From positions 1,240,001-1,304,000 of the forward strand of contig NZ_CP102294.1 in NCBI RefSeq assembly GCF_025144665.1: DNA of 64,000 nucleotides. Reading direction: 5' to 3'. The notes under the pieces were generated by a model, which saw only the letters and a program-made list of their open reading frames with translations, was not told the origin of the DNA and did not search any database. The DNA comes from Alistipes ihumii AP11 (GTDB lineage Bacteria > Bacteroidota > Bacteroidia > Bacteroidales > Rikenellaceae). Of this stretch, positions 11,286 through 61,708 are shown piece after piece. The translations under genes were made by a program, and so were the position numbers. How positions within the stretch are numbered: the stretch's first letter is position 1; every line of letters begins with the position of its first letter.

Positions 11286-11762
11286 ATGGCATCGAACATT
11301 GTTTATCTGACCGAGGCGGGTCTGCAAAAACTCAAGGACGAACTGGATCACCTCCGTTCGGTAGAGCGTCCCGCCATCTCGGCAGCCATCGCCGAGGCGC
11401 GCGACAAGGGAGATTTGTCGGAGAACGCCGAGTACGACGCGGCCAAAGAGGCTCAGGGCATGCTGGAAATGCGCATCGCCAAGCTGGAAGACACGGTGGC
11501 CAATGCCCGCGTGATCGACGAGTCGCGCATCGACACGAACACCGTACAGATCCTGAACCGAGTAAAAATGAAAAATATGACGACCGGCAAGATCGTAGAA
11601 TATACGCTGGTCTCGGAAAACGAGGCCAACCTCAAGGAAGGCAAGCTGGCGATCGGCACCCCGATCGCGCAGGCGCTGCTCGGAAAGAAAAAGGGCGAAG
11701 AGGTGGACGTAAAGGTTCCCTCGGGCATGCTTCGCCTCGAAATCCTGGATATCTCGATCTGA
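11286..11762 (+). CDS. greA: Transcription elongation factor GreA
   Basis: A 158-residue cytosolic factor, the standard GreA length, which stimulates RNA cleavage by stalled RNA polymerase. The N-terminal coiled coil (about 1-75) includes LTEAGLQKLKDELDHLRS and the tip acidic pair region EARDKGDLSENAEYDAAKE. The C-terminal FKBP-like globular part ends GMLRLEILDISI. It follows the 62-residue membrane mini-protein within the same apparent unit. No clear intrinsic terminator follows. Confidence 0.97.
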   Translation: MASNIVYLTEAGLQKLKDELDHLRSVERPAISAAIAEARDKGDLSENAEYDAAKEAQGMLEMRIAKLEDTVANARVIDESRIDTNTVQILNRVKMKNMTTGKIVEYTLVSENEANLKEGKLAIGTPIAQALLGKKKGEEVDVKVPSGMLRLEILDISI

Positions 11763-51803: not shown

Positions 51804-52727
51804 TTACCTCCTATCGGACAAACCGTTCTTTTCCAGAAAAGCGAGTATGGCTTTTTGCATGTCCTCCCCGTTTTCGAGAAACGGCATATGTCCGACGTCG
51901 CTTCCCCACAGAATCATATTCGGGAAACGCACTTTCCGGTAATGTCGCGGGCCGACGCTCCAGTCGGTCTTACCGTAAAAAAACAGGACGGGTATCTCAA
52001 CCCCGGCCGTGGCCGGACGGTAGTCCCGGAAATATTCCGGAAACGACCGGAACTCGCCGCTGAAATCGTTATTGAAATCGGGAATTTCCTGAAACGACCG
52101 GTTCATCTCCGCATCGCTTTCCGGCGAAGCATAAAATATCTTCCATCGCAGTTCCTTCTCCTCGAGCTTGCCGGCGGCTATCGCTAATTTTTCCATATCG
52201 GAAAGGGAATCGTTTTTCAGGAACGCGCACCGGCTTTTCCCCAGCAGTTCCCTCGTTCTGTGAAACCAGCCGTTTTCAAAGCTATCCTCGATACATAGCG
52301 TACAGTTCAGCATGATCATTCCTTCGATCGCATCGGGAACTCGCTCCACATACCCCATTTGCAGGATTCCCCCGAACGAGTGCCCCAGCGTAAGCCATCG
52401 GTCGATATGCAGGACGCTGCGCACCTGCTCAAAGTCTTCGACCATTCTTTCCATCGAGTAGTCCCCGTCGGCCGGACCGGTCGAACGTCCGGTTCCCCTC
52501 TGGTCCAGATAGACCATCGTAAAATGTCGTTCAAGAAAATCGCCGGAGAACTTTTCGAGCCAATAGGAACCCGATCCGGGCCCTCCGTGAACATAAAGCA
52601 AGTACGGTCCCTGCCCCTTCACTTTCACATAAAGCCGGACGCTGTCGGTCGTCGTAACGGTCATTTCCTTCCCCTGAAGCCGTACATATCCGATCAAAGC
52701 GACAAACAACCATAAAATGCTTTTCAT
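51804..52727 (-). CDS. Alpha/beta hydrolase (proline iminopeptidase-like)
   Basis: A 307-residue hydrolase with a hydrophobic N-terminal segment (about 4-17) that suggests export or membrane anchoring. The oxyanion motif HGGPGSGSYW (about 48-57), YLDQRGTGRS and nucleophile elbow GHSFGG (Ser117) are those of the S33 proline-iminopeptidase group; FFYGKTDWSVGP and GHMPFLEN supply the Asp and His. Substrate is uncertain: peptide, ester or lactone. It has two TAnnTTTG elements upstream and is transcribed alone. Codons are more AT-ending than in neighbouring housekeeping genes. Confidence 0.85.
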   Translation of the reverse strand: MKSILWLFVALIGYVRLQGKEMTVTTTDSVRLYVKVKGQGPYLLYVHGGPGSGSYWLEKFSGDFLERHFTMVYLDQRGTGRSTGPADGDYSMERMVEDFEQVRSVLHIDRWLTLGHSFGGILQMGYVERVPDAIEGMIMLNCTLCIEDSFENGWFHRTRELLGKSRCAFLKNDSLSDMEKLAIAAGKLEEKELRWKIFYASPESDAEMNRSFQEIPDFNNDFSGEFRSFPEYFRDYRPATAGVEIPVLFFYGKTDWSVGPRHYRKVRFPNMILWGSDVGHMPFLENGEDMQKAILAFLEKNGLSDRR

Positions 52728-53040: not shown

Positions 53041-53074
53041 AAAAACGGAGGGACGGCCTGCGGCCGTCCCTCCG
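53041..53074 (-). terminator. Intrinsic terminator after the SusCD locus
   Basis: A perfect 13-bp stem (CGGAGGGACGGCC 53046-53058 with 53062-53074, 3-base loop) followed on the minus strand by five T. It ends the SusC-SusD-metallohydrolase-DUF4302 transcript. Confidence 0.92.
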
Positions 53075-53097
53075 TATCTCAACGATATTCAGATTGT

Positions 53098-54549
53098 CTA
53101 TCTGTCAACCTCCGGATAGCCCACGATGACCAACGAAGGATTCGATTTGCATTCCCAATAGATCAACGGAATCTTCTCGCCGGACGTAGAGCTCAACGTA
53201 CCGAACCAGTCCATTTCGAAAGTCTGGCCTGCCAGTGCATCGAGCAATTCCTTGCCGGCGCCGGCTTCCAAGAAAGTCGTGTTAAAGCCGTTGGCGTCGA
53301 ACGGGCAGGTATAGTTACCCAACCTCAGTACGCCCGGCTCGGGCATGGCCATGTCGAAGTTGTAGCTGGCGCCGTACAAGTCATCGTTAGGAAGAAAGAA
53401 TAACGGCATCAGCTCCATGTACATGCTTCCGTCCGATTTCTGACGGAAATACAGGTTCACCTGAGCCAGCTCCAGCCCGAAATCCATCAGTTGATCGGCA
53501 TAGAGGGCGAGATATTGCCCCATCAACGGATAGTTCTGATAAATCACGTCCACCCAACTGATCGGAATACCGGTCATGTTATACTCCCGATTGTACTCGG
53601 GACCGATCCACACCGACAGAGGAATCGGAGAATAAGTGGCACTGAGAAGCGGAGTCGTCGAGCCGTCGGCCAGTACGACTTCGTATTTCGAGGTTCTGGA
53701 ATTCCAGTTCAAACGGGTAACGACCACCTGATCGGCCACCTCGATCGGTTCGGGCAGAATGATGTTCTGATCGAAATCGACATAAGAGTCCGTCACGTCG
53801 GAATGGACCAGCGATTTCCCGTCGGCGGCCTCGTAGGAAGTACTCATCGAGCGCAGATTGAAATTGAACAGCACAGGCCCGTACTTCTGGGTTTCGATGT
53901 AGGAATAATTCTGGGCAGCGATGAATCTCGACAGCGCTTCGATCGACCTCACCATACCCGCCTGACTGGCGGCCCGTTCTTCCTCTGCGGTCGCTTTGAC
54001 CAGCGTCGCATTAGCGCGGTGCGTGCGGCCGCGCAGCGTGAAAACGCTGTCCTCATACGAGGCGATCTCGTACTCGAAGTCGGTCTGGAGCCCCTGATTG
54101 CCCGACCCGTGGCTGACACTGTCGTCCGGATCGCAGAGCACGGCCAGATAGCTGTACGTGTCGAATATCAGCGTAGGACGCTGCAACGCCTTCAGACGGA
54201 AGGAAGAGGTTCCCGGAACCGCCGTCCCCCCGTTCACTCCGCTGTAATCGTAATTCATATTGTCGGTGATCATCGTGACCCGATTTCCTTTCAGGTCGTT
54301 CATCACCTCGCCATTGTTGACGTAAAACTTCATCCAGAAGCGATAGATACCCTCGCTGGTGGAAATGTTGGCCATCCAACCGTGCTCGGCCGACGTCAGT
54401 TCGTTCTGATAGGCGGTCAGCGTCGCGTTCAGCCGTTCATCGACATTGCCCATGTAATCGTCGTCGTAATCCCTTTTACAGGAGAGTACGGTCAGGGCAA
54501 TCAATACCGGAATCAGCAGATATATAATTCTTTTCATATTTGATCTCAT
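53098..54549 (-). CDS. DUF4302 family lipoprotein
   Basis: A 483-residue predicted surface or periplasmic lipoprotein (lipobox LTVLSC, Cys24; ATG 54537 four codons in is an equally good start). N-terminal RLNATLTAYQNELTSAEHGW and the FYVNNGEV/RVTMITDN segments match the DUF4302 pattern; the protein is rich in beta-strand and Asp/Tyr/Ser. Function unknown. Members of this family are typically found beside SusC/SusD and the HExxH lipoprotein, as here, so a role in binding or processing the imported substrate is inferred. Last gene of the operon. Confidence 0.85.
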   Translation of the reverse strand: MRSNMKRIIYLLIPVLIALTVLSCKRDYDDDYMGNVDERLNATLTAYQNELTSAEHGWMANISTSEGIYRFWMKFYVNNGEVMNDLKGNRVTMITDNMNYDYSGVNGGTAVPGTSSFRLKALQRPTLIFDTYSYLAVLCDPDDSVSHGSGNQGLQTDFEYEIASYEDSVFTLRGRTHRANATLVKATAEEERAASQAGMVRSIEALSRFIAAQNYSYIETQKYGPVLFNFNLRSMSTSYEAADGKSLVHSDVTDSYVDFDQNIILPEPIEVADQVVVTRLNWNSRTSKYEVVLADGSTTPLLSATYSPIPLSVWIGPEYNREYNMTGIPISWVDVIYQNYPLMGQYLALYADQLMDFGLELAQVNLYFRQKSDGSMYMELMPLFFLPNDDLYGASYNFDMAMPEPGVLRLGNYTCPFDANGFNTTFLEAGAGKELLDALAGQTFEMDWFGTLSSTSGEKIPLIYWECKSNPSLVIVGYPEVDR

Positions 54550-54572
54550 TTAAATTGTCCATAAGGTTCCGA

Positions 54573-55514
54573 TTAGTCGAGTTGCTGCTCGATCGCCTCC
54601 TGCACGTAAGTAACGATACCCTTGCCCTCGGCGTCGTCATAGAACTTGATACCCCAGACGTTTTTCATATAGTCGACGACGATCGCTTCTTTCCGGGTGA
54701 AAGCGTCGTAGGCCGTTTCGTTGACCAATTTGCCGTTCTGGAAGCAGGTCTTCTGCACCATATCGTCATACCACTCCCGGCCGTACACCATGATGACCGA
54801 GATCATTTCGACGAAGTCCTCGTCCTTGCCCGACATGGCATAAGGCGTAATGAAGCCCAAAGACTGAGCCTCGGCGTATTCGACGTCGGTCCAACCCGTC
54901 GGATTGTACTTGCCGGCGCTGATCGACTCGTACGTCTTGTCGAACATCGTCGTCTGATGCAGGATATGGGCGAACTCGTGCTCGATCGTATGCAGGAACT
55001 GACGGATGCAGTTGGCGCCCTCGGGCGACGTTTCCTGCTCCGGATCGGAAATATCCGTGCTACGATCGAAATTATTGACGTTCAGCAGCAGAATCTTCAG
55101 ACCGCCTTCGGCCTGACCTAGCTTGATCGCGCCGAACTGGTACTCGCCGCTACCGCCCAGCACGACCTGTTTGGGCGTCATCTTCTTCAGAAACACATCG
55201 CCCACGGCCCGCTCGTAGGGCTCGAACCAAACGTCCCGGATCGCCGTCATGAAAGTCACGACGGAATCCTCCTCGACCGGAACGATCGGGCGAAGCCACG
55301 ACGACTGCACCTGCGACGCGTCCCAACGATAGATCACTTCAATATTGTACGGAGCCGTAAAATTGTCGTACAGCCACTCGTCGATTTCGTTGGGAATGTA
55401 TTCTTCGCCGCCCAAGCCCGGAATCCTCATGGAAGTATCCAGCTTCTCCTCCTCGCAGGAGACGGACATCAGACCGACGGCCATCAGCAACAATGCTATT
55501 CTCATATTTTTCAT
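54573..55514 (-). CDS. Import-associated zinc metallohydrolase lipoprotein
   Basis: A 313-residue lipoprotein (Cys20) of the SusCD-associated HExxH group (TIGR04549-like). The zinc motif HEFAH is at 179-183, with EDFVEMIS about 60 residues later as candidate for the third, glutamate, ligand as in gluzincins. Likely anchored to the outer membrane and acting on the substrate of the adjacent SusC/SusD porter; peptide bonds are the natural guess but no substrate is established. ATG 55514 is preferred to upstream ATGs, the longest of which overlaps susD. 23-25-base gaps on both sides support one operon. Confidence 0.88.
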   Translation of the reverse strand: MKNMRIALLLMAVGLMSVSCEEEKLDTSMRIPGLGGEEYIPNEIDEWLYDNFTAPYNIEVIYRWDASQVQSSWLRPIVPVEEDSVVTFMTAIRDVWFEPYERAVGDVFLKKMTPKQVVLGGSGEYQFGAIKLGQAEGGLKILLLNVNNFDRSTDISDPEQETSPEGANCIRQFLHTIEHEFAHILHQTTMFDKTYESISAGKYNPTGWTDVEYAEAQSLGFITPYAMSGKDEDFVEMISVIMVYGREWYDDMVQKTCFQNGKLVNETAYDAFTRKEAIVVDYMKNVWGIKFYDDAEGKGIVTYVQEAIEQQLD

Positions 55515-55539
55515 AAAACGATCTGTTTTCATTGATTGT

Positions 55540-57246
55540 TTAATACCATGCACCTACGTTGCTCCACGGATTCTGCTCGACTCCCGAAAGCGACACGACC
55601 TGAGGCAACTGAATCACCCGACGGTCGTCCTCCGGAGTCAGCTCGCTGCGCTGCCCGTCGGCTGTCGCATGATAAACAGGAATGAACCAGCGCAGAATAT
55701 CGAAATGACGGATGCCTTCGCGCAGGAATTCCAGCTTCCGGGCATCCAGGATGGCGAGTATCAACGCCTTCTGGAAACGCAGCTCGTCGCCGGTAGCAGT
55801 GAACTTGGACGCATTGTAACGGCTGTTGATGAAATGGTCCTCATTGGCCAGGTCCGCACTGTAATGCGAAAGCAGCAGATCCTTGTAGAGGACATGCTTT
55901 CCGTATACGTACTCCGTCGCATCGGCACGAAGGGCCGTCCAGATATTCAGGTCGTTCAGCGCATCCTGATAGCGGCCCGTCAGAGCGAACGCCTCGGCAC
56001 GGGCCAGAAGCACCTCCTCGCGGCGAAGCAGCGGAATCTTCGCATACGGAAGCCCTGTCTGAGCCTGCACGTTATCCATCTTGAAGTCCTCGTAGAACTT
56101 GGGGATAATGAACGTATCGTCGCCCGAATAGCTGAAAGCGGGCTGATTCAGATAGACTCCCGTCGGCGAGCCGTACAGCATCTCGATCATCGTCGCCCGG
56201 TTGACGCCGTGACGCGCGTAAGCCGTACCCGCGGTTCCGCGCACGATAACGGTCACGCATTCGGAAATCAGCAGATTGCCCGGCGCGCTGGTCCCAGAGA
56301 AGCCCATCCGCATGCCGTCGGCAGAGCCCGTAGCGGCAATCGTATTCCAGTCGTTCATATTGTTCAGGCAATACATGTTGGCCGCATCGTCCTCGGCTAC
56401 GTAAAGCACGGGAGTCCCGTCGTCATTCTTGACCGGCTCTCCGTCCTCGGTCATTTCGTTCAGCTTCGAGGCCGTAGGCAGTCCGAGCGCATTAGCATAG
56501 GCGATCACCGCCCCGTAGTCGCCCGTATAAAGCGCCATACGGGCCCCGAACGCGTTGGCCGCATCCAGAGTAAAGTGATATTTGGGCTGAGCGTAGTCGG
56601 CGCTCCCGCCGATATCCCGGATGGCCTGATTGAAATCGTTCTTGATTTTCTCCAGCGTGCCGGCCACCGTGCCACGGTCGTAATACTTGATCACGACGTC
56701 CTCGGGCTCGGTCACGTACGGAACGCCCGGATTCATATTGGTGTTCACGTCCGCGAACTTCGAGTCGAACATGTTGGCATACATCGTCAGCAGCGTGAAA
56801 TGATTGTATGCCCGGGTCATCAGGGCTTCGGCGCGCTGCTTGCCTGCGTTCGCCTGTTCGGAGGTAGGAAGCGTCTCGATAGCCGCCAGCGCATGGTTGG
56901 CCGCCGAAATGGCCTCGTAAACGGACGTCCAGTATTGCTCGTAGGTATCGTTGCTCGATTCCGAACGGGTGTACTCGTCCCACATGAAACCGCTGACGAC
57001 GAAATCGAAAGAAGAAGAAGGCTGCGAGCCGTCGAGCGTTGCGCCCATGTCGACGATATAGTCGCAACGCGGATCGAGCAGCGACATGTTCGTCCGATTG
57101 GGATAGGCCGAGACGAGCAGGGCGCTCACCTTGTCCAGGTTGTCGATCGACGCGCGGTTGTCCGGCTCCTTGTCGAGGAAACTGTTGCAACCGGCGACGA
57201 GCCCTCCCAGACCCAAAATCGAAGCGAGTTTGAAAATCCTTTTCAT
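55540..57246 (-). CDS. SusD/RagB family substrate-binding lipoprotein
   Basis: A 568-residue outer-membrane lipoprotein (lipobox VAGC, Cys20) that caps the SusC porter and captures ligand. The N-terminal CNSFLDKEPDNRASIDNLDKV is typical, followed by TPR-like helices (SAANHALAAIETLP, AEALMTRAYNHFTLLTMYAN), and the C-terminal EFLREGIRHFDILRW that defines the family. It follows susC by 43 bases. Confidence 0.95.
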   Translation of the reverse strand: MKRIFKLASILGLGGLVAGCNSFLDKEPDNRASIDNLDKVSALLVSAYPNRTNMSLLDPRCDYIVDMGATLDGSQPSSSFDFVVSGFMWDEYTRSESSNDTYEQYWTSVYEAISAANHALAAIETLPTSEQANAGKQRAEALMTRAYNHFTLLTMYANMFDSKFADVNTNMNPGVPYVTEPEDVVIKYYDRGTVAGTLEKIKNDFNQAIRDIGGSADYAQPKYHFTLDAANAFGARMALYTGDYGAVIAYANALGLPTASKLNEMTEDGEPVKNDDGTPVLYVAEDDAANMYCLNNMNDWNTIAATGSADGMRMGFSGTSAPGNLLISECVTVIVRGTAGTAYARHGVNRATMIEMLYGSPTGVYLNQPAFSYSGDDTFIIPKFYEDFKMDNVQAQTGLPYAKIPLLRREEVLLARAEAFALTGRYQDALNDLNIWTALRADATEYVYGKHVLYKDLLLSHYSADLANEDHFINSRYNASKFTATGDELRFQKALILAILDARKLEFLREGIRHFDILRWFIPVYHATADGQRSELTPEDDRRVIQLPQVVSLSGVEQNPWSNVGAWY

Positions 57247-57289
57247 ATATGGTTCTTTTTTTATTCTATATTAATAATTCCATTCGAGA

Positions 57290-60200
57290 TCAGAACCCGA
57301 GATCGAGCGAGAATACGACCTGAGGCTGAATAGGCATGGCCACGCCGCCGGAGTTGTAGAACTCGGGGTCCTGACCGTGCAGCTTCTTGTCGGAGTAAAG
57401 CAGCCAAAGGTCTTTGCCCGTCACGCGGATCGAGGCGCTCTTGAAGAAATGGCTTTTGCGGATCCAGCTCGACGGCACGTCATAGGCGAACGAGATGGAC
57501 TTCAGGCGGATGAAATCGCCCTTGGCCACCCGGACGTCCGAGTAGTTGTAGTTGTTATACGGATAGGCGTTGCCCAGTTCCATCGACGCGGTCAGCAGGT
57601 CGGCAATCGACGGAACATTCGTCTTCAACTCGTCTCCAGATTTCACCCACCGGTTCTTGAAGTCGTTCGGAAGGGCGTTGATGTCGCTGTACGTATCGCG
57701 GAAAACCGGGTCGAGACGAACCACGTTGCCTGCGGCGAAGCTGAAGAACAGGTTCATCGACAGGTTCTTCCACCGGACCGTGGTATTCAGACCGCCGGTG
57801 TACTTCGGATCGACCGTACCCTCGTACTTCAGGAAGTCGGTTTCAGTACCTTGCATGTAAACGTCGGTCGTCAGATTGCCGTCCTGGTCGTAGAACATCG
57901 GGATACCGCTGTCGGGATCGAGCCCGGCGAACGGAATCGAGAAGAGGCTGTGCACCGGATAGCCGTTCTTGTTGCCGCCCTCCTGACGTACCATATCCCA
58001 GACCTGAGGTTCGTTCTTCGCGTTCTTGATCTCGTTGTGCGAATAACCGAAAGTCAGGTTGGCCGTCCAGCTCCAGTCCTTGGTCCGGATGATCGTACCG
58101 CCCAACGTCACGTCGAAGCCGTAAGCGCTCAGGTCGCAATAGTTGGCGTATTTCCACATGTTGCCGCCGATACCCGACACCTTGATCAGGTTGATCAGGT
58201 CGAAACTCTGACGGTTATAGTAGTCCAAGCTGAAATTCAGCCGACCGTCGAACATCGTCAGGTCGTAGCCGACGTTGAACTGATAGTTCTTCTCCCACGT
58301 CAGGTCCTTGTTCTCGAGCTCCTCGATCACCATGCCGTTCTCGGTATTTCCCGGGCGGTACACCTCGTTGTAGCGATACACGACGCTCGAGTTGGTCGCC
58401 AGACCCGTATTGGCCGACAGACCGTAGCTCAGGCGCAGGCCCATCACGTCCACCTTCTCGGCATTCTCCATGAACTTCTCGTTAGCGATGTTCCAGCGGG
58501 CTCCCAGGTTCCACGTAGGCAACCAGCGGGCCGAGCTCGAACTTCCCAGGCCGTTGTTTCCGTCGTAACGGAACGTAGCCGAAACCGAATAGCGACGGTC
58601 GTAGGTATAGTCGGCATTCGCATAAAAGGCGGCCTGACGGTCGTATGTCTGCGTCATACTATAATAAGGGAACTGACGAGCGATCAGCATCTCGAACAGC
58701 TTCGGATCGATCGCTACCACTCCGCCGTAATCGTACTGATAGCCGTAACCGCTGTTCGAGTTGAAGTGGCGGTCGGCGAACTTGGCCTGCACGCCGCCCA
58801 GCACATTGAGCTCCTGCGTCCGGACGCCGTTGTCGAACACCTTGTTGTACGAAAGCGAGTTACGCACGTCATAGGCCCTCATCGACATTTCGTCGCGGTT
58901 GTAGAAACCGCCGTAGGGCAACACGACCACCGGCTCGGCCGACGGATCGTTCGGGTCGCGGTACAGGTAGGGATTCATTTCGCGGATCGTCGAGTTGCCG
59001 GCGGCCCGATAGGCATTGGCCGCATTGGACTTCTCGTGCACCCGGTGTTCGGTATCGGTCTTCACGTAACGCAAAGCTCCGATAAAGCTATACTTCAACC
59101 CCTTGATGATTTGATAGTTCAGCTCGCCCTGCAACCTCAGGTCGGCTACGTCGATGTGGATGCGGTTGTACTTCAGCTCGTCGAAGATATTGAACGGAGC
59201 GTAGTTCAGTGTCGTGTACTCCAGGTTGCCGTTCTCGTCGTAAGGACGCAGCGCGCGGCTCGTGTTGAGCGCATAACTGAACGGGTTGATATCGAAATCG
59301 CGGTTGTACTCGCCGGTCACGACGTCGGTCTGACGGCCGAACGTACCGGGAGTATCCTGACTGCGGTACATTCCGTTGACGGCGAAGGCGGTCGAAACCT
59401 TCTTGCTGATCGTGTAGTCGTTGCGGAACGACATCGTGTAGCGGTCCACCTTATCGTTGGCCACCGTCCAGCCCGCATCGTTCATGAAGCCTACCGAAGC
59501 ATAGGTCTTCGACTTCTCCGTACCGGCCGAGATGCTGACGCTGTGGTTCTGGATCAGCGAATTGCGGAACAGCAGGTCGAACCAGTCCGTATTGGCGAAA
59601 GCATATTTATAAAGGAATGCCTCGCGGGCGTTTTTCGTATTTTCCAAACCGAACTGACCTTTCGATTCATCATAAGAATGGATCAAATTCCACATGATGC
59701 CGTACATACCGGACGAAGACTGATTGACGATCTGCGAGGTGAGCAACCCCTTGCGTTCCATTTCGGCATTGACGGACATCTGGTCGAACGAGTTCATGAT
59801 ATTGTACTGATCGTACGAGGGCTTCGTGCGGATCGTGAAGTCGCCGTGGTAGCGGACGATCGGCTCGCCGAGCTGCGTACTCTTGCCCCGCTTGGTCGTG
59901 ATGACGATCACGCCGTTCATCGCGCGGGCGCCGTACATGGCCGTAGCGGCGGCATCCTTCAGAATGTCGAACGTCTCGATGTCCTCGGCATTGATACCGG
60001 CCACCGAAGAGCCCAGCAACGTCGTCGGGTCGCCGCTCGAGAGCTGGTCGTTCGACACGTTCACCATATCCTCCAGCACCACACCGTCGACGACCCACAG
60101 CGGCTTGTTGTCGCCGGTGATCGACGCGACGCCGCGAATACGCACCTTGGGCGCGGCACCGAACGTACCCGACACGTTCTGCACCGATACGCCGGCCGCC

Positions 60201-60637
60201 TTGCCTTCCAGCATACGGCTGATGTCCGACGTACCGGCCACGTTCAGGTCGGACGCGTTCAGCTTGACCGACGAACCGGTAAAGGTCTGCTTCTTGAGGT
60301 TCTGATAACCGGTGACGACGACCTCGTCGATATCTACGGATGAGCTCTTTAACGCTATGTCGATTTTCGTGCGATTGCCCACGACGACCTCCTGCGGGTC
60401 GTAGCCGACGAAGCTGAACGTCAGCGTAGCGTTCTGCGTCCCTTTCGGAATGGGAATCGTATATGCGCCTTTCGCATCGGTCGTGACGCCGACCGCCGTT
60501 CCCTTCACGGCAACGGTAGCATAGCCTATGGGCGCCCCGTTCCCCGCGTCGGTCACGATACCGCTAATCTTAGTCTGGGCCCAAAGGGCACAGAAGCTAA
60601 AACTAAAAACGATTAATAACAGTAAAGATTTTTTCAT
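57290..60637 (-). CDS. SusC/RagA family TonB-linked outer-membrane protein
   Basis: An 1115-residue TonB-dependent porter. Signal peptide (1-20), a carboxypeptidase-regulatory-like beta-sandwich (ISGIVTDAGNGAPIGYATV onward, to about 105), the plug (QTFTGSSVKLNASDL, LEGKAAGVSVQNVSG, ILKDAAATAMYGARAMNGVIVITTKRGK) and a 22-strand barrel ending VFSLDLGF. Imports the locus's ligand with SusD; no glycosidase, sulfatase or regulator sits nearby, and the HExxH partner suggests peptide or glycopeptide cargo. First gene of the operon. Confidence 0.96.
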   Translation of the reverse strand: MKKSLLLLIVFSFSFCALWAQTKISGIVTDAGNGAPIGYATVAVKGTAVGVTTDAKGAYTIPIPKGTQNATLTFSFVGYDPQEVVVGNRTKIDIALKSSSVDIDEVVVTGYQNLKKQTFTGSSVKLNASDLNVAGTSDISRMLEGKAAGVSVQNVSGTFGAAPKVRIRGVASITGDNKPLWVVDGVVLEDMVNVSNDQLSSGDPTTLLGSSVAGINAEDIETFDILKDAAATAMYGARAMNGVIVITTKRGKSTQLGEPIVRYHGDFTIRTKPSYDQYNIMNSFDQMSVNAEMERKGLLTSQIVNQSSSGMYGIMWNLIHSYDESKGQFGLENTKNAREAFLYKYAFANTDWFDLLFRNSLIQNHSVSISAGTEKSKTYASVGFMNDAGWTVANDKVDRYTMSFRNDYTISKKVSTAFAVNGMYRSQDTPGTFGRQTDVVTGEYNRDFDINPFSYALNTSRALRPYDENGNLEYTTLNYAPFNIFDELKYNRIHIDVADLRLQGELNYQIIKGLKYSFIGALRYVKTDTEHRVHEKSNAANAYRAAGNSTIREMNPYLYRDPNDPSAEPVVVLPYGGFYNRDEMSMRAYDVRNSLSYNKVFDNGVRTQELNVLGGVQAKFADRHFNSNSGYGYQYDYGGVVAIDPKLFEMLIARQFPYYSMTQTYDRQAAFYANADYTYDRRYSVSATFRYDGNNGLGSSSSARWLPTWNLGARWNIANEKFMENAEKVDVMGLRLSYGLSANTGLATNSSVVYRYNEVYRPGNTENGMVIEELENKDLTWEKNYQFNVGYDLTMFDGRLNFSLDYYNRQSFDLINLIKVSGIGGNMWKYANYCDLSAYGFDVTLGGTIIRTKDWSWTANLTFGYSHNEIKNAKNEPQVWDMVRQEGGNKNGYPVHSLFSIPFAGLDPDSGIPMFYDQDGNLTTDVYMQGTETDFLKYEGTVDPKYTGGLNTTVRWKNLSMNLFFSFAAGNVVRLDPVFRDTYSDINALPNDFKNRWVKSGDELKTNVPSIADLLTASMELGNAYPYNNYNYSDVRVAKGDFIRLKSISFAYDVPSSWIRKSHFFKSASIRVTGKDLWLLYSDKKLHGQDPEFYNSGGVAMPIQPQVVFSLDLGF

Positions 60638-61177
60638 AAATTAATTGTTTAGAACCAATAGTATTTTCCTTCCATTTTTTACCTCAATCTCCCTCCCAGA
60701 ATAACCTCCCCTCTTCTGTTACCGCCTTTTTCCGGCACGGATATCCCGGCAGCAAGTCCTGCCAGGATTATAATTCCGTCCGAAAAACTCCGCCGATCAT
60801 TACGATTCGACAGCAACAACGCCCACATCGCAGAACATTTATCACATTCCGAGACGTTTTCCTAACAAATTATCAATCAACATATTCTGCGATCCTGCGC
60901 AAGGTAACAATAATTTACGGAATTGTTAATTTTTTATCCGAAAAAATATTCCAGGATACGGTTATTCGTCCGATTCTTAGCTCTTTTTATCCGCAAAAAA
61001 ACGACACAAGGTATTCCAAGGAAGGGGGTATCCCCCGAATTATCCATTTTTCAAAAACATAAGCCCTGAAAAGTCAAGGGGGTATCTAAAAATTTCGACG
61101 CAGACCGACAGACAAGCGCCGCACATCCCTGCTACGGCATATCGCCGAACCCGGAAACATCGAACAGTCCCAAGCGG
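60638..61177. other. AT-rich regulatory spacer upstream of SusC
   Basis: About 540 bases, the most AT-rich stretch in the window, with no gene. No exact TAnnTTTG was found for susC (TACTATTG, one base off, is near its start). It carries the repeated AAGGGGGTATC boxes listed separately. Confidence 0.5.
61022..61086. repeat. Direct repeat AAGGGGGTATC with palindrome
   Basis: AAGGGGGTATC occurs at 61022-61032 and 61076-61086, 54 bases apart start to start. The first copy is part of the palindrome GGGGGTATCCCCC (61024-61036). It lies between rimM and susC and may be a protein-binding site. Confidence 0.6.
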
Positions 61178-61708
61178 TCAATCGTTCAGATCGATCAGCC
61201 CGTCGGGCAGGTCGAAACGGATCACTCCGTTTTCCAGATCGGTCTCCACGATAAACTCGTCGACGGCCGGCACATAGATTTCCCGGCCGTCGATCCGGAG
61301 CAGAAACAGCGGATTCTCGCCGTCGATGAACTCTTCGATGACTCCGCCGTACGCATCGCCGACCGAAGCCTCGAGTCCTACGAGGTCCTCCAGATAGACG
61401 AGCCCGTCGCCGGGCGGTTCCTCGCCGTCCGCCAATCGTCCGCCGCATAGGAAAAGCTCCCGGCCGATCAGCTCGGCCGTGCGGCGCTCGCTGTAAAAAT
61501 CGGCGAAGACGACCAGCGCTCCGTTGCGCCCGCGACGCTCGAAACGGTCGCAAAAAAGAGGGACCGCCAGTCGGTCGATCTCGACGAACAGCGGCTCCCT
61601 CAAATCAAAATCGTCGGGAAACGTATCGAAAAGGCTTACCAGCAACTCCCCTTCCGAGCCGAAAGACTTCGACACGCGGGCGACGGCTACGCTGGCATTT
61701 CCCGACAT
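61178..61708 (-). CDS. rimM: Ribosome maturation factor RimM
   Basis: A 176-residue 16S rRNA processing factor that binds S19 and helps mature the 30S head. The N-terminal domain begins VARVSKSFGSEGELLVSLF, followed by PLFVEIDRLAVPL, and the PRC-barrel half shows DLVGLEASVGDAYGGV and EIYVPAVDEFIVETD. It follows rpsP by 14 bases, the usual pairing of S16 with RimM. trmD, normally next, is absent. Confidence 0.92.
   Translation of the reverse strand: MSGNASVAVARVSKSFGSEGELLVSLFDTFPDDFDLREPLFVEIDRLAVPLFCDRFERRGRNGALVVFADFYSERRTAELIGRELFLCGGRLADGEEPPGDGLVYLEDLVGLEASVGDAYGGVIEEFIDGENPLFLLRIDGREIYVPAVDEFIVETDLENGVIRFDLPDGLIDLND

Follow-up and report, generated by a model that had tools for sequence, protein, structure and literature searches.

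A SusC/SusD locus of Alistipes ihumii with a putative Mx1 metallopeptidase and a DUF4302 lipoprotein: a candidate surface porter for protein-derived cargo

In a stretch of 64,000 nucleotides from the genome of Alistipes ihumii AP11 (contig NZ_CP102294.1, positions 1,240,001 to 1,304,000; hereafter the window), four consecutive genes code for a SusC channel, a SusD-type lipoprotein, a lipoprotein resembling the Mx1 zinc metallo-endopeptidases and a lipoprotein of the DUF4302 family. We read all four, with a probability of about 0.5, as one outer-membrane import unit, a surface protease-porter for protein-derived cargo. In the proposed mechanism, Mx1 and DUF4302 would be flipped to the cell surface and seated on the SusCD pair, where Mx1 would work as an active zinc endopeptidase and cut extracellular proteins, peptides or glycopeptides. 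DUF4302 would dock the protease or hold the ligand through a strongly conserved patch on its first modelled domain, SusD would close on the product, and SusC would pull it in with TonB. The identity and order of the genes, the conserved metal-site residues, the lipoprotein signals and the linkage across many genomes are directly established. As Sus-like systems are usually interpreted as importing sugars, the four-gene form offers a clear test of protein-derived import by a large class of SusCD pairs.

Conservation of the four-gene order

An earlier note on this DNA, made from the sequence alone, had described an operon of SusC, SusD, an HExxH lipoprotein and DUF4302, and the four genes are all where it placed them, with profile matches far above the cut-offs (Table 1). 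Adjacent SusC (TIGR04056) and SusD-family genes make the locus a member of the SusC/SusD importers, and no Pfam match to the N-terminal signalling (STN) domain was found in the window SusC.

Conserved neighbours across genomes, which the note had advised to look for, were studied in the best 80 of 311 confirmed loci, a set biased to closer relatives, and in 59 further stretches. Open reading frames (ORFs) were called with a greedy longest-ORF script, by which real genes were lost to antisense ORFs in GC-rich loci such as L028, and the loci without a called Mx1 (4 of the 80 and 4 of the 59) were left out of the counts. SusC, SusD, Mx1 and DUF4302 were found in the same order and on the same strand in 72 of the 76 loci of the first set with a called Mx1, and the other four were cut by contig ends or were missing one called gene. 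Mx1 was called in 55 stretches of the second set, DUF4302 being the next gene in 53 of them and the full four-gene order being present in 49. This conserved order makes a chance grouping very unlikely, and its presence in many relatives supports that the four genes very likely work as one unit.

The association between Mx1 and DUF4302 was also followed in 247 genomes sampled evenly from the order to which the window belongs. All 21 DUF4302 genes, found in 13 genomes, lie directly 3' of Mx1, and the Mx1 matches without DUF4302 were just three weak partial ones, with E values around 1e-5 (one of the 25 Mx1 rows was omitted from this count, being a further segment of a gene already included). The pair is obligate in this sample. 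The module as a whole is accessory: at family level Mx1 was found in 33 of 200 genomes, and at genus level in one of nine, that of the window itself, six of the other eight being at least 93% complete. Each of the two families has one copy in the A. ihumii genome (a single contig of 2,780,015 bases). Five Mx1-DUF4302 pairs were found in a 2.2 Mb genome of the order (G087; L114, L118, L123, L124 and L125). Among the best 80 of 311 loci, the nearest relatives by Mx1 come from uncultured Rikenellaceae and Alistipes, and many carriers are Chitinophaga and Dyadobacter.

A midpoint-rooted tree of SusC, SusD and Mx1 from 132 units, in which some of the deeper supports were 0.32 or 0, grouped the window with seven other loci in one clade (support 1.0), the nearest being L194, on the same contig as L027. 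A Capnocytophaga-like locus, L250, fell in another clade with Flavobacteriaceae-type loci and L120.

Putative metallopeptidase, porter pair and DUF4302

The match of the window Mx1 extends over most of the family model. The start of the gene is ambiguous (GTG at 55553, ATG at 55532 or ATG at 55514) and, numbered from the last of these, the key residues of the protein are the lipobox Cys20, H179, E180 and H183 of the HExxH motif, D233 and E236. In a set of 132 Mx1 proteins, where at least two loci are duplicated under different names (L027/L194 and L092/L212), H179 and E236 never vary, and 131 of the proteins have the full HExxH plus E236 as third ligand. Close homologues were thus not found to lose the metal site, which the earlier note had named as a refuting result. 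The sole exception is the protein of L120 (L120:9743-10744, genome G059), where HQFAK replaces HExxH; it is possibly a pseudo-enzyme version. The genes grouped with it code for DUF4302, a protein of 222 aa, DUF4856, an fn3 protein and one of 308 aa. In a further 14 Mx1 proteins, from a single Flavobacteriaceae-type family, HExxH is always present, and 12 of them show the third-ligand pattern, which was missed in L262 and L263.

The structure of the metallohydrolase was compared with solved ones, as the note had also proposed. Its AlphaFold2 model (pLDDT 88.7) matches 4l7a with a Z of 27.1 (rmsd 3.0, 245 residues, 29% identity), an entry described as BACCAC_01431 of Bacteroides caccae, the type protein of MEROPS M93 (PMC3890501). 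A second solved relative, 9urd, bears just a family name. The next matches were M34-type endopeptidase domains (Z around 9.6, rmsd 4.9, 189 aligned), and PPEP-1 and PPEP-2 gave Z values of 6.6 and 6.4 (rmsd 4.0 and 148 aligned for the 6.6 match). At these Z values, the window Mx1 may have in common with PPEP-1, PPEP-2 and the M34 lethal-factor catalytic domain the HExxH zincin fold, and with M34 a downstream Glu ligand, but its identity to them is 12-15%, and it is a lone lipoprotein of a commensal-type genome, with no delivery part.

By a lenient test, run like the lysine and acidic counts without a control set, 151 of 153 SusD, 141 of 146 Mx1 and 147 of 151 DUF4302 proteins have a lipobox-type Cys. 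In Mx1 and DUF4302, K is common at +3 and D or E at +4/+5. A K at +3 was present in 60 of the 141 Mx1 and 74 of the 147 DUF4302 proteins, and a D or E at +4 in 84 and 82 of them, respectively; the window stretches are CEEEKLD for Mx1 and CKRDYDDD (Cys24) for DUF4302. The published signal for surface export is X-K-(D/E)2-X, with an acidic version without lysine reported for B. fragilis (PMC5080379). The lysine and acidic residues that follow the Cys of Mx1 and DUF4302 fit with this signal. By gene position, BT_3960 is presumably the Mx1 of B. thetaiotaomicron. The BT_3960 protein is reported to be strongly enriched in the outer membrane vesicles of this species (PMC6222051).

Regarding the porter pair, the solved chains closest to the window SusC were 8ypu_C (351 bits) and 8ypt (350 bits), RagA giving 190 bits, and a profile of 13 SusDs of the module had 8ypt_A as its closest solved chain (E 4.6e-40). 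The SusCs of L250 and L027 likewise had 8ypu and 8ypt as their top solved matches, which suggests a single SusCD subfamily for the module. RagAB of Porphyromonas gingivalis, a peptide importer, has the SusC/SusD architecture in common with the window, but the window SusC is far closer to 8ypu and 8ypt.

DUF4302 would be the key to understanding the other parts of the module, and no paper on its function was found in the literature searched. The family match covers residues 32-283 only, and no solved relative was found by sequence, even with a 64-member profile. The model (pLDDT 85.6) consists of two barrel-like domains. The conserved residues lie nearly all in the N-terminal one (P125, F129-D130-T131-Y132, D140-P141, G153, D157 and E159 among others), P308 being a conserved residue outside it, and the C-terminal domain is variable. 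Comparing the DUF4302 structure, another proposal of the note, gave marginal matches to ToxS-type barrels, taken as a lead only: residues 42-186 matched ToxS 8u2f (Z 9.1, rmsd 3.6, 112 aligned) and residues 308-481 matched ToxR/ToxS 8alo (Z 7.4, rmsd 4.2, 119 aligned). At this margin of meaning, both modelled domains would resemble lipocalin-like barrels. The Foldseek matches to sliding clamps and other proteins, with a best E of 3.6e-05 but TM-scores of 0.11-0.13, were discarded as meaningless. An internal duplication was rejected as well, as the two barrel-like domains have no sequence similarity (hhalign E 0.015, 22 columns). We infer from the model that DUF4302 may combine a conserved docking face with a variable binding domain.

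Nature of the cargo

The reading as a protease-porter is favoured by the fold neighbours of Mx1 beside 4l7a, that is, the M34-type endopeptidase domains and PPEP-1/2, and by the presence of S8 subtilases (in at least four loci) and BACON proteins as neighbours of the module. Several points weigh against it. The fold matches ranked under the M93 structure have Z values at a level where common arrangements occur, and no tested peptidase activity was found for any Mx1 in the literature searched. The loss of the motif in the Mx1 of L120 suggests that catalysis may not always be needed. Within the window's clade of eight loci, a subtilase was found beside the module only in L116, the neighbours of L030 and L200 being outside the scan. 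Moreover, homologues in an iron capture system are reported to serve iron (PMC5429918), and the published response of BT3958/59 of B. thetaiotaomicron to core 1 disaccharide and galactooligosaccharides suits a glycan cargo (PMC5238430, PMC13088901).

The genes around the module were scanned in 69 neighbour proteins, comprising 66 of 73 listed downstream proteins and three added ones (one of L120 and two upstream in L186); two proteins of L112, one of L119, three of L124 and one of L216 were omitted, and the two of L112 and one of L124, scanned separately, were DUF34, zinc ribbon and WYL proteins. The most frequent families were BACON (16) and subtilase S8 (6), with subtilase genes individually seen beside the module in L116, L186, L201 and L220. 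No glycoside hydrolase was found among the 25 of 54 matched families displayed, so glycosidases seem to be missing from the module in general and not just in the window's genome. In the window, Pfam/TIGRFAM-type profile matches revealed no carbohydrate-active enzyme in the four module genes or in three annotated neighbours. The earlier note was thus right that neither a glycosidase nor a regulator gene is adjacent to the operon. Its further suggestion of a peptide, glycopeptide or metal-peptide cargo was supported in part, as the glycosidase lack seems module-wide but the homologues point two ways, to serotransferrin iron and to core 1.

One alternative is a system for mucin or other host glycoproteins, in which Mx1 would cut an O-glycosylated peptide and SusCD would import the glycan or glycopeptide. 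BACON proteins, commonly regarded as binding mucin or carbohydrate, are the most frequent neighbours, and host-glycan loci in Bacteroides are under sigma/FecR-type control, which the genes upstream of the module resemble: a FecR-type gene stands immediately before SusC in 34 of the 76 loci and an extracytoplasmic function (ECF) sigma-type gene before SusC in 32, counts for which one protein of each cluster was identified. However, no BACON gene lies beside the module of the window, nor does a sigma or FecR gene, in which last point it differs from many relatives, and the same module is found in Chitinophaga and Dyadobacter, which are mostly soil or plant bacteria. The expression data come from BT3958-BT3961 (PUL71, a polysaccharide utilization locus), which by published labels, rather than by sequence comparison, has the same arrangement as the window (SusC, SusD, the putative protease BT3960 and the DUF4302 protein BT3961). 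There, core 1 disaccharide is reported to upregulate BT3958/59, which was identified as a locus for mucin O-glycans (PMC5238430, PMC13088901), but BT3960 is equated with Mx1 by its place in the gene order and by the name 'calpain-like protease'. We consider a mucin system unlikely for the window.

A second alternative is iron acquisition, with iron or an iron-bearing fragment being taken from a host iron protein. The iron capture system (ICS) of Capnocytophaga canimorsus is described as seven genes that use serotransferrin (PMC5429918, PMC4447898). Its icsC to icsH are equated with B739_0103 to B739_0098 of Riemerella anatipestifer, where B739_0101 (icsE) is a substrate import-associated zinc metallohydrolase and all six homologues are up around 8- to 14-fold in iron limitation (log2 3.06 to 3.81; PMC5429918). 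In the same source, icsC to icsF correspond to SusC, RagB, the zinc metallohydrolase and the next gene, in such a way that this core and the window have in common SusC, SusD and a TIGR04549-named metallohydrolase in order, icsF being DUF4302 by position. The claim of the earlier note that the substrates of such genes were not established overlooks this system, whose metallohydrolase is icsE. We take L250 to be the locus of Capnocytophaga ochracea, and it shows the layout expected of icsC-H, the four genes of the module (SusC to DUF4302) preceding those of a lipoprotein of 206 aa and a barrel-like protein of 205 aa.

Against iron as the cargo, the window has no icsG/icsH-like genes after DUF4302, which is followed instead by a terminator and an unrelated alpha/beta hydrolase, and filing the module as an ICS was rejected for this reason. 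The two small proteins of L250 had no relative in the called genes of 153 loci, in the window ORFs or in the genome, in a search run without a positive control. Many of the carriers, Chitinophaga and Dyadobacter, would not meet transferrin. In iron-depleted B. thetaiotaomicron, BT3958-59 and BT3961 are reported to fall 2.6- to 3.6-fold (PMC10434189), so the counterpart locus is lowered rather than raised. The window and L250, the presumed C. ochracea locus, also stand in separate clades of the midpoint-rooted tree. The lack of icsG/icsH-like genes and the apparent branching away from L250 make iron a rival and not the answer, and we regard it as a rather unlikely one.

SusCD pairs without local enzymes exist, and the module could in principle be an ordinary polysaccharide utilization locus with its enzymes elsewhere in the genome, Mx1 acting on self or housekeeping targets. 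This would agree with the induction of BT3958/59 by galactooligosaccharides (PMC5238430), but we rejected it as improbable given that DUF4302 never occurs without Mx1 (21 of 21), that the module has no carbohydrate-active enzyme and that no glycoside hydrolase is among the displayed families of the neighbours.

With an ICS counterpart linked to iron and BT3958-61 linked to core 1, the cargo seems to differ between lineages. Beyond the protease-porter reading of the window, a wider proposal can be made tentatively, with the odds somewhat against it: SusC-SusD-Mx1-DUF4302 would be a widespread importer class in which one SusCD subfamily receives protein-derived or protein-bound cargo from a fixed M93 endopeptidase and a DUF4302 receptor of two barrels, the transferrin iron system and the mucin-linked locus being specialised descendants and the window a minimal form. 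It would join in one family three separately described loci, that is, the iron capture of Capnocytophaga and Riemerella, BT3958-61 and the minimal form of the window.

Layout of the locus and neighbouring genes

Table 1. The module and its flanks, in positions of the window, with profile matches and their E values
Feature	Position	Strand	Length	Matches and remarks
Alpha/beta hydrolase	51804-52727	-		directly past the terminator, then a DUF4948 protein
Intrinsic-terminator-like hairpin	53045..53075	-		operon end; 14-pair stem, T-rich tail
DUF4302 lipoprotein	53098..54549	-	483 aa	PF14135 9e-32, 111.3 bits (cut-off 27)
Mx1 zinc metallo-endopeptidase-like lipoprotein (Peptidase_Mx1/TIGR04549/MEROPS M93)	54573..55553	-		PF15890 2.6e-75, TIGR04549 1.4e-75
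SusD-type lipoprotein, channel lid	55540..57246	-	568 aa	PF14322 7.8e-28, PF07980 4.4e-09
SusC	57290..60637	-	1115 aa	TIGR04056 4.7e-186; Plug and CarbopepD_reg_2 matches
AT-richer intergenic region 5' of SusC, presumed promoter region	60638..61177	-		43% GC
rimM	61178-61708	-		upstream of SusC, 540 bases between

The four genes are separated by gaps of 43, 7 and 23 nt in ORF coordinates, the second of them assuming the Mx1 start at ATG 55532. The operon had been given as 53098-61086 in the earlier note; it is present there, but its coding part ends at 60637, and 60638-61086 is upstream DNA. The AT-rich character of this region, also described by the note, is borne out by comparison with the 59% GC of the whole window. 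A terminator-like hairpin (53075-53045) was likewise found at the operon end, with 11 of its 14 pairs G-C and the longest stem of its scan, the next having 10 pairs; the scan gave 10 terminator-like sites against 9.6 expected by chance. Neither Rfam families nor tRNAs were found in the window. The region upstream of SusC has no 10-mer in common with that of its nearest relative, L194, and a promoter footprint was discarded, as the sole 10-mer in common with seven relatives was one match in L031, whose stretch begins inside the locus.

On the upstream side, rimM was called in three of five congeners (L287, L288 and L290), and the genes after it differ there from those of the window; as the ORF caller had lost rimM in L285 and L289, the five gave no clean empty site. 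The homologue of a 158-aa ORF (window 11286-11762) lies around 5 kb from rimM in L287 and L288 and the ORF around 49 kb from it in the window, which suggests that the intervening stretch was rearranged or inserted. The alpha/beta hydrolase on the other side has a weak likeness to proline iminopeptidases (TIGR01250 6.6e-23, 81.7 bits, below the cut-off of 167.65), and its close relative within the genus (78%) was found only in G254, elsewhere on the chromosome.

In the relatives, the median length of SusC was 1224 aa in 35 loci with a gene of 300-430 aa just upstream and 1127 aa in the 39 others. The extras downstream of the module vary by lineage and include BACON proteins, subtilases and T9SS-tailed proteins. 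GH92 neighbours, expected from B. thetaiotaomicron, were not borne out in a related Bacteroidales locus, L108, where the 747-aa neighbour is an aconitase. In 15 loci of Chitinophaga and related genera (for example L045:12278-20863), the gene after DUF4302 runs past the end of the stretch and codes for at least 2,620 aa; IgGFc-binding, beta-helix, Ig and PKD domains were found in the single product scanned. Finally, L031, L199 and L211 have another SusC/SusD pair beyond the module, encoded on its strand; in L199 this pair comes after a BACON-cluster gene, and in L211 it seems to belong to a tandem second module.

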